A DNA stretch of 42,042 bases. Origin: an uncultured Bacilli bacterium. GTDB taxonomy: Bacteria; Bacillota_I; Bacilli_A; RF39; UBA660. The first letter of the stretch is position 1. Every line of letters begins with the position of its first letter. The notes below the pieces were generated by a model, which searched no databases, was not told the DNA's origin, and was given only the letters and a program-made list of their open reading frames with translations. Below are positions 38,295 through 39,071 of the stretch, piece by piece. The DNA is taken from the NCBI GenBank assembly GCA_944358795.1, contig CALVRW010000017.1, positions 1 to 42,042 of the forward strand. The letters run 5' to 3'. A program made the translations under genes and the position numbers.

Positions 38295-39071
38295 TTATTC
38301 ACTTACTTTAACCATAGATGGTCGAATGACTTTATCTTTTAAACGATATCCTTTTTGTAATACTTCAATTACCATACCTGGTTCTACTCCATCACGAGCT
38401 TCTGTCATAACTGCTTGATGGATATTTGGATCAAATTCTTTATGAAGTGCTTCAATTTCTGTTACTCCATATTTTTCTAAAACTTGATCCATATTACAGT
38501 AGATCATTTTAAATCCTGATAAGAACTTTGATACTTCATCTTCTAAATTATCATCATCCATATCAATCGCTCTTTCAAAATTATCAATAATTGGTAATAA
38601 ATCTTTTACGATATCTTCATTAGAATACTTTAGCATTCGTGCTGTTTCTTCTTCTCTTCTTTTTTTATAATTTGCAAATTCAGCACTCTGTCTTAACACT
38701 TTATCTTGCAGTCCCTGAATTTCTTTTTTTAATTCTTCACTTTTATCTTTTTTATGAAACAATCCTTTTTTCTTTGTTTCATTTACAGACTTTGTATCTG
38801 ATTCTGTGTTACTTTCTTCTTCGCAGTTGCAATTGTCACAGTCGCATTCTCTATCTTCACATTTGCAATCTTCACCACACTCGCAAGTTTCCTTGCAATC
38901 GCATGTATCGTCACAGTTACAGTTTGAATCACAATTGCATTTCTCGTCTTCACACTTACAGTCATGATTGCAAGTGCATTCTTCACTACATTTTTCTTCT
39001 TCTGTACAAGTACAATCTTCACCACAAGTACAGTTTTCATTACACTTACATTGTTTTTCTTTTTCTTCCAT
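38295..39071 (-). CDS. grpE: GrpE nucleotide exchange factor with Cys-rich N-terminal extension (258 aa)
   Basis: The C-terminal ~150 residues are a normal GrpE: coiled coil ([26 protein letters not shown]), [53 protein letters not shown]. The N-terminal residues 8-83 contain 25 cysteines in CxC units spaced by about three residues, mixed with Asp, Glu, Asn, Lys and Thr, like a metallothionein. No hydrophobic signal precedes it, so it should be cytoplasmic. Cys codons mix TGC and TGT and the flanks differ, so this is not a simple recent slippage repeat. The ATG shares one base with the hrcA stop (TGATG), SD AAGGTGATG; a TTG one codon earlier is less likely. Metal binding or redox control of Hsp70 is a hypothesis. 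Confidence 0.95.

Follow-up and report, generated by a model that had tools for sequence, protein, structure and literature searches.

SlyD is a folding factor whose tail binds metal; metallothioneins usually employ 2.75–3 Cys per divalent ion, and those of bacteria form the SmtA/BmtA class. In Helicobacter pylori, the GroES protein HspA has a His/Cys-rich C-terminal extension that binds nickel, is thought to store or detoxify it and can be deleted with viability retained, and the nickel-binding SlyD has been suggested to act as a reservoir (PMC3856676). The N-terminal tail of Escherichia coli GrpE acts directly on the substrate-binding domain of DnaK via a hydrophobic IIM motif, helping substrate release (PMC12915176). 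Yeast Mge1 is described as redox-controlled via Met oxidation, redox control has also been proposed for the vertebrate mitochondrial GrpE-like factor GrpEL2 (Cys87), and the words metal and zinc are absent from a review of GrpE-like factors (PMC12987570). Our literature search on GrpE with metallothionein or zinc found nothing relevant, in agreement with the sequence-only reading that preceded this study, which knew of no described GrpE with the feature reported here.

A cysteine-rich module joined to an ordinary GrpE

We analyzed a 42,042-nucleotide stretch of an uncultured Bacilli bacterium (hereafter, the window), whose source genome, a 1.17 Mb draft in 57 contigs, contains a single GrpE. 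The gene lies in a heat-shock operon with the order hrcA-grpE-dnaK-(M3 peptidase)-dnaJ, in which both CIRCE operators are upstream of hrcA and the hrcA stop and grpE start share one base:

40126..40152, plus strand: CIRCE operator (HrcA site), 2 mismatches, 0.01 expected by chance
40079..40105, plus strand: second CIRCE-like operator, 3 mismatches
39071..40066, minus strand: hrcA heat-shock repressor (PF01628, 5e-46)
38295..39071, minus strand: grpE coding sequence, ATG at 39071, 258 aa
38823..39050, minus strand: Cys-rich module, GrpE residues 8-83, 25 Cys in 76 residues
38748..38774, minus strand: KKKGLFHKK, hydrophobic stretch with basic flanks, between tail and coiled coil
38298..38789, minus strand: ordinary GrpE part (PF01025 positions 4-165; long helix, then C-terminal beta head)
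36448..38274, minus strand: dnaK (PF00012, 3e-248)
34585..36384, minus strand: M3 peptidase (oligopeptidase F type), in the dnaK-dnaJ interval
33452..34570, minus strand: dnaJ, CxxCxGxG zinc fingers intact

Residues 96-259 of the open frame match PF01025 (E = 1.5e-50; 171.5 bits against a cut-off of 25.8), and an AlphaFold2 model places a helix at 93-148 and strands at 203-257, the normal GrpE helix and head. Residues 1-92 are modeled without structure at pLDDT below 50, as expected if the tail may need metal in order to fold. The protein is like the ordinary GrpE of E. coli and Bacillus, which has an acidic disordered N-terminal tail, in its core domain, in the hrcA-grpE-dnaK order and in having a disordered N-terminus before the long helix, and differs from that of E. 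coli in that its Cys region has metal-ligand repeats in place of the hydrophobic IIM-type motif that binds DnaK (PMC12915176). The KKKGLFHKK stretch adjoining the coil, a candidate DnaK substrate-site motif, is kept in a second genome of the same genus (G001; CALVJW010000009.1, uncultured Bacilli).

The sequence-only reading had described 25 Cys in about 76 residues, spaced as CxC-x3-CxC and in frame with an ordinary GrpE, within an interval (38820-39071) that covers the module mapped here, and the Cys positions, shuffling and the PF01025 match bear this out. Cysteines occupy residues 8, 10, 14, 16, 20, 22, 28, 32, 34, 38, 40, 45, 47, 51, 53, 57, 59, 63, 65, 69, 71, 76, 78, 81 and 83, mostly as CxC pairs with three acidic or polar residues in between. 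There are 12 CxC motifs, against 5.3 in shuffles of the same residues, and seven CxC-x3-CxC motifs, against 0.11 expected and a maximum of three among 10,000 shuffles. The first 92 residues include 33 acidic, nine basic and no aromatic residues. Across the six frames of the window, the runner-up 76-residue stretch for Cys is the DnaJ zinc finger, with nine. Seven of the 12 DNA matches to CxC-x3-CxC in the whole genome are inside the GrpE tail; three of the five outside grpE were translated, all being chance frames with stops, and by this measure (three of five translated) no second carrier was found in the source genome.

With its 33% Cys (25/76), repeated CxC and freedom from aromatic residues, the module resembles the metallothioneins (animal Cd-MT, plant Ec), and free versions exist in relatives; it differs from them in being fused to GrpE, with acidic spacers, rather than a small free-standing protein. 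When a profile of the tails was searched against 177,635 PDB sequences, the best two matches, both weak, were metallothioneins, Cd-MT 6qk5 (E = 0.08) and Ec protein 2kak (E = 0.19); the raw tail and a free peptide had zero matches there. No metallothionein model in Pfam or NCBIfam matched the window GrpE over its cut-off, and relatives gave only sub-threshold matches. By family the protein is a GrpE, and its sequence places it in no described metallothionein family.

HspA, whose nickel-binding extension would be the nearest functional precedent (PMC3856676), is similar in being an essential heat-shock co-chaperone with a tail full of metal ligands, metal binding at GrpE being predicted from sequence. 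HspA is a GroES with a C-terminal, nickel-linked tail, NikR control and Ni enzymes, whereas the GrpEs considered here have a GrpE domain, an N-terminal tail with up to 25 Cys and HrcA/CIRCE sites, in a family without a [NiFe] hydrogenase large subunit over the cut-off (0/80 genomes, source genome included). SlyD offers a similar likeness, as a nickel-binding folding factor with a metal-binding tail and a suggested reservoir role, and is a different protein whose tail is C-terminal and nickel-linked. GrpEL2 is alike in being a GrpE-family factor with a functional Cys; it has one disulfide-forming Cys near the helix and no Cys-rich repeat (PMC12987570).

Tailed GrpEs recur across the family, with Cys or His

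We surveyed the window's GTDB-level family (coded f1; ~170 genera sampled), counting GrpEs with intact 5' ends and classing as tailed those with at least six Cys+His in the tail. The distribution was strongly two-peaked, with a Cys/His-rich tail in 66/137 and two or fewer Cys+His in 65/137, in a sample tilted toward high-scoring GrpEs; a draw not ranked by score gave 14/35 tailed. Such tails were found in none of 15 Bacilli GrpEs outside the family, and none of 57 GrpEs from more distant named records reached six Cys+His. The search for CxC repeats over GrpE N-termini of uncultured Bacilli that the sequence-only reading had suggested thus recovers the feature, and shows it to belong to dozens of genera rather than to a single GrpE. 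The named family members are metagenome-assembled genomes, mostly labelled only 'uncultured Bacilli'; samples marked 'Lapin' (rabbit) are the source of many of them, and sheep rumen of one.

On a tree of GrpE cores, tail state changes at least 20 times on the best tree, and eight changes are forced by supported branches alone; the His-rich state accounts for five changes or more. In genera g3, g29 and g67, His-rich or Cys/His tails stand where the window's genus has Cys. A His-rich tail with the segment ...HEHKHEECKCHEHHEHKREECKCHEH... is found in G366, and the His-rich tails of g3 genomes and of G355 have 20-26 His. GrpE tails at five loci of these genera (L165, L154, L157, L021 and L191; g67, g29, g3) have 21-26 His, some with Cys/His repeats such as HEECKCHEHHEHK. 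Hydrophobic residues make up 4.7% of metal-type tails, compared to 13.9% of plain family tails and 19.2% of tails in other Bacilli. The gains, losses and Cys/His switches on an otherwise conserved core amount to a natural experiment on the role of the GrpE tail.

The same module on other proteins

Other carriers were traced with a profile of the tails and with DNA patterns for the repeat. A class-wide profile search (E <= 1e-5) was too insensitive for tail counts and exposed the HisRS and free-peptide carriers. GrpE was the commonest carrier found; for the others, listed below, Pfam identity was tested on one example of each type and the rest were assigned by visible similarity.

HisRS, C-terminus: 11 f1 genomes (G080, G212, G123, G242, G261, G150, G168, G254, G020, G166, G141); acidic, Cys/His-rich tails at L248, L249, L265, L266, L280, L282, L314, L364, L365, L371, L383
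Single-cluster (4Fe-4S) ferredoxin, C-terminus: 10 f1 genomes (G179, G025, G186, G391, G021, G183, G035, G178, G012, G233); loci L277, L310, L311, L312, L318, L321, L329, L362, L368, L370
DeoC, C-terminus: two genomes (G248, G166); L363, L367
RelB-like protein, C-terminus: two genomes (G292, G198), Pfam match sub-threshold; L261, L281
DUF1292-like protein, internal: two genomes (G362, and G027 with a sub-threshold match); L313, L359
NrdD, between it and a glutaredoxin-like domain: one genome (G350); L369
Free peptides of 45-61 residues: seven genomes (G184, G090, G195, G125, G248, G166, G019); L246:1498-1656, L260, L320, L327, L361, L366, L372

In at least two genomes the frame downstream of the tailed HisRS gene resembles aspS, and a homologous protein of ~80 aa is encoded near the free peptide at both L246 and L372.

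Most free peptides have a core of CTCGCxxGKxCTC type. Searches of four of them against NCBIfam and of two against Pfam gave no match over cut-off, and a search of plasmid records with a free peptide gave none. A MEEK-type start and a CGCxEGKECTC core are common to the free peptides and several GrpE tails, and this shared sequence suggests fusion as one origin.

Carriers tend to replace one another, a pattern with which phylogeny is confounded: another carrier was present in 18/71 genomes with plain GrpE and in 2/66 with tailed GrpE (p = 2e-4, confounded by phylogeny and with too few supported independent pairs). Tailed GrpE and another carrier occur together in five genomes in all (G254, G019, G150, G080, G212). 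In most genomes with plain GrpE, the pattern search turned up no Cys module on another protein. In a draw across the phylum, a strict five-Cys pattern was matched in 4/17 family genomes and 4/365 others, one of the latter being a chance frame. Outside the family, rare Cys-rich acidic segments occur at L377, L376 and L379, as a tail on a protein resembling the RidA/YjgF type (G498) and in two Bacilli proteins.

A proposed tethered metal buffer and its alternatives

We propose that the GrpE tail acts as a metal buffer of metallothionein-like kind, tethered to a housekeeping carrier, a reading that we consider probable from the sequence comparisons. Each chain would present about 25 thiolates (50 per GrpE dimer) on an acidic, disordered backbone almost devoid of hydrophobic residues, and would hold soft metal ions (Zn2+, Cu+ or Cd2+) in thiolate clusters, with a predicted load of roughly 8-9 ions per chain at 2.75-3 Cys per divalent ion. 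GrpE, as an abundant, essential and cytosolic protein under HrcA/CIRCE control, would serve mainly as the carrier; in related genomes the module rides other housekeeping proteins or stands alone, and in some genera it is built with His for Cys. We infer that the tail of the window GrpE works like a metallothionein or the tail of HspA.

A metal-binding role is strongly favored. The sequence-only reading had offered Zn, Cu or Cd binding and oxidation sensing side by side; the first of these is supported by the replacement of Cys-rich by His-rich tails in relatives, while the same tails point away from the second. This alternation of Cys and His is the strongest argument from sequence for metal over redox. 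The presence of the module on HisRS, ferredoxin, DeoC, NrdD, RelB-like and DUF1292-like proteins and in free peptides makes a DnaK-specific job improbable, and we put most weight on a tethered buffer because these carriers share little beyond their housekeeping-type cytosolic nature. In its favor, HMA metal-transport domains occurred in 19/46 genomes with any carrier and in 25/34 without (p = 0.006, uncorrected for ancestry and with too few supported independent pairs); a rarer HMA domain would be compatible with a buffer that does the work of a copper/zinc pump. Several observations count against it. About half of the family's GrpEs are tail-free, mostly in genomes with no other Cys module, so the need for a metal module is not universal; the metallothionein models all stay below their cut-offs; and HrcA/CIRCE control is not metal-specific.

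The family-wide grafting of the module is the more novel part. A wider proposal is that of a lineage-wide distributed metallothionein, in which the family would satisfy a need for cytosolic metal buffering with an interchangeable Cys/His module, grafted on abundant housekeeping proteins (GrpE, HisRS, ferredoxin, DeoC, NrdD, RelB-like and DUF1292-like proteins) or left free. Carriers would have been exchanged again and again, and at GrpE the module would have displaced the tail that ordinarily promotes substrate release from DnaK; we regard the chances of this proposal as even. If metal is bound, metal homeostasis would be built into the Hsp70 system, and metallothionein function across a family would be borne by unrelated housekeeping proteins and unnamed in domain databases. 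The system is a source of testable hypotheses on metal stress in uncultured gut Bacilli.

Among the alternatives, the one that survives best, although we think it unlikely, is that the tail changes state on binding metal and thereby alters nucleotide exchange or substrate release by DnaK. It draws on the action of the E. coli GrpE tail on DnaK through its IIM motif (PMC12915176), on the window's KKKGLFHKK stretch beside the coil and on the prevalence of GrpE among carriers. The metal-type tails are mostly stripped of hydrophobic residues, a sign of changed tail function, and their low content relative to other Bacilli suggests that an IIM-type substrate-release function was lost or moved, perhaps to KKKGLFHKK. 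The module on HisRS, ferredoxin, DeoC and NrdD and as free peptides, however, needs no DnaK, and gains and losses of tails have been frequent. The coupling of metal or redox state to DnaK nucleotide exchange that the sequence-only reading had suggested may occur, and has no specific support, the module recurring on unrelated proteins and as free peptides. A GrpE-specific sensor was demoted from first choice once the other carriers appeared.

A redox switch, in which oxidant-formed disulfides between Cys pairs alter GrpE or DnaK, has precedents in GrpEL2 and Mge1 (PMC12987570), and CxC can form disulfides. We judge it improbable, given that the His-rich tails of sister genera are incapable of thiol redox chemistry and that 25 Cys are far more than a switch would need.

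A nickel store, or a chaperone serving a Ni enzyme, on the model put forward for Helicobacter HspA, is still less credible. A Cys/His-rich tail on a co-chaperone and the resemblance of its His-rich relatives to nickel-storage proteins speak for it; against it, Cys-only tails are poor nickel ligands, and 80 family genomes yielded no [NiFe] hydrogenase large subunit over the cut-off, a result that argues against an HspA-like store serving that hydrogenase.

Selection on cysteines in close relatives

Comparison with close relatives shows the module to be real and selected. The congeneric genome G001 encodes a homologous GrpE with 18 Cys, in which 17/17 aligned Cys of the tail are kept and 15/63 other aligned residues have changed; two internal gaps explain the difference in tail length, and three of the conserved Cys codons differ synonymously. 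Over ten close pairs, Cys were kept at 113/123 positions and other residues at 303/458 (Fisher p = 2e-9), a change rate of 8% at Cys and 34% at their neighbors, in alignments that may somewhat favor Cys-Cys matches. In nearly all close pairs dN was below dS. Cys codons in the window tail are mixed (15 TGT and 10 TGC), which together with the conservation of Cys backs the earlier suggestion of selection on the protein and rules out slippage or a simple repeat.

Non-adaptive drift, in which a disordered acidic tail merely tolerates Cys in an anaerobe, would account for the fast turnover of tail length and sequence, with tail dN well above core dN. Cys are nevertheless the conserved letters of these tails, whose distribution is two-peaked and whose spacing is far from shuffled, and we find this explanation very hard to credit. 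An assembly error or gene-call artefact fusing a Cys-rich peptide to GrpE, conceivable for a draft in 57 contigs, can be dismissed: the feature is present in close relatives, with the same in-frame structure in the congeneric genome and in ~65 other assemblies.

Elsewhere in the window, an 877-aa protein encoded at 7139-9772 has an N-terminal methylation (type IV pilin-like) motif, and within the heat-shock operon an M3-family oligopeptidase gene is interposed between dnaK and dnaJ.
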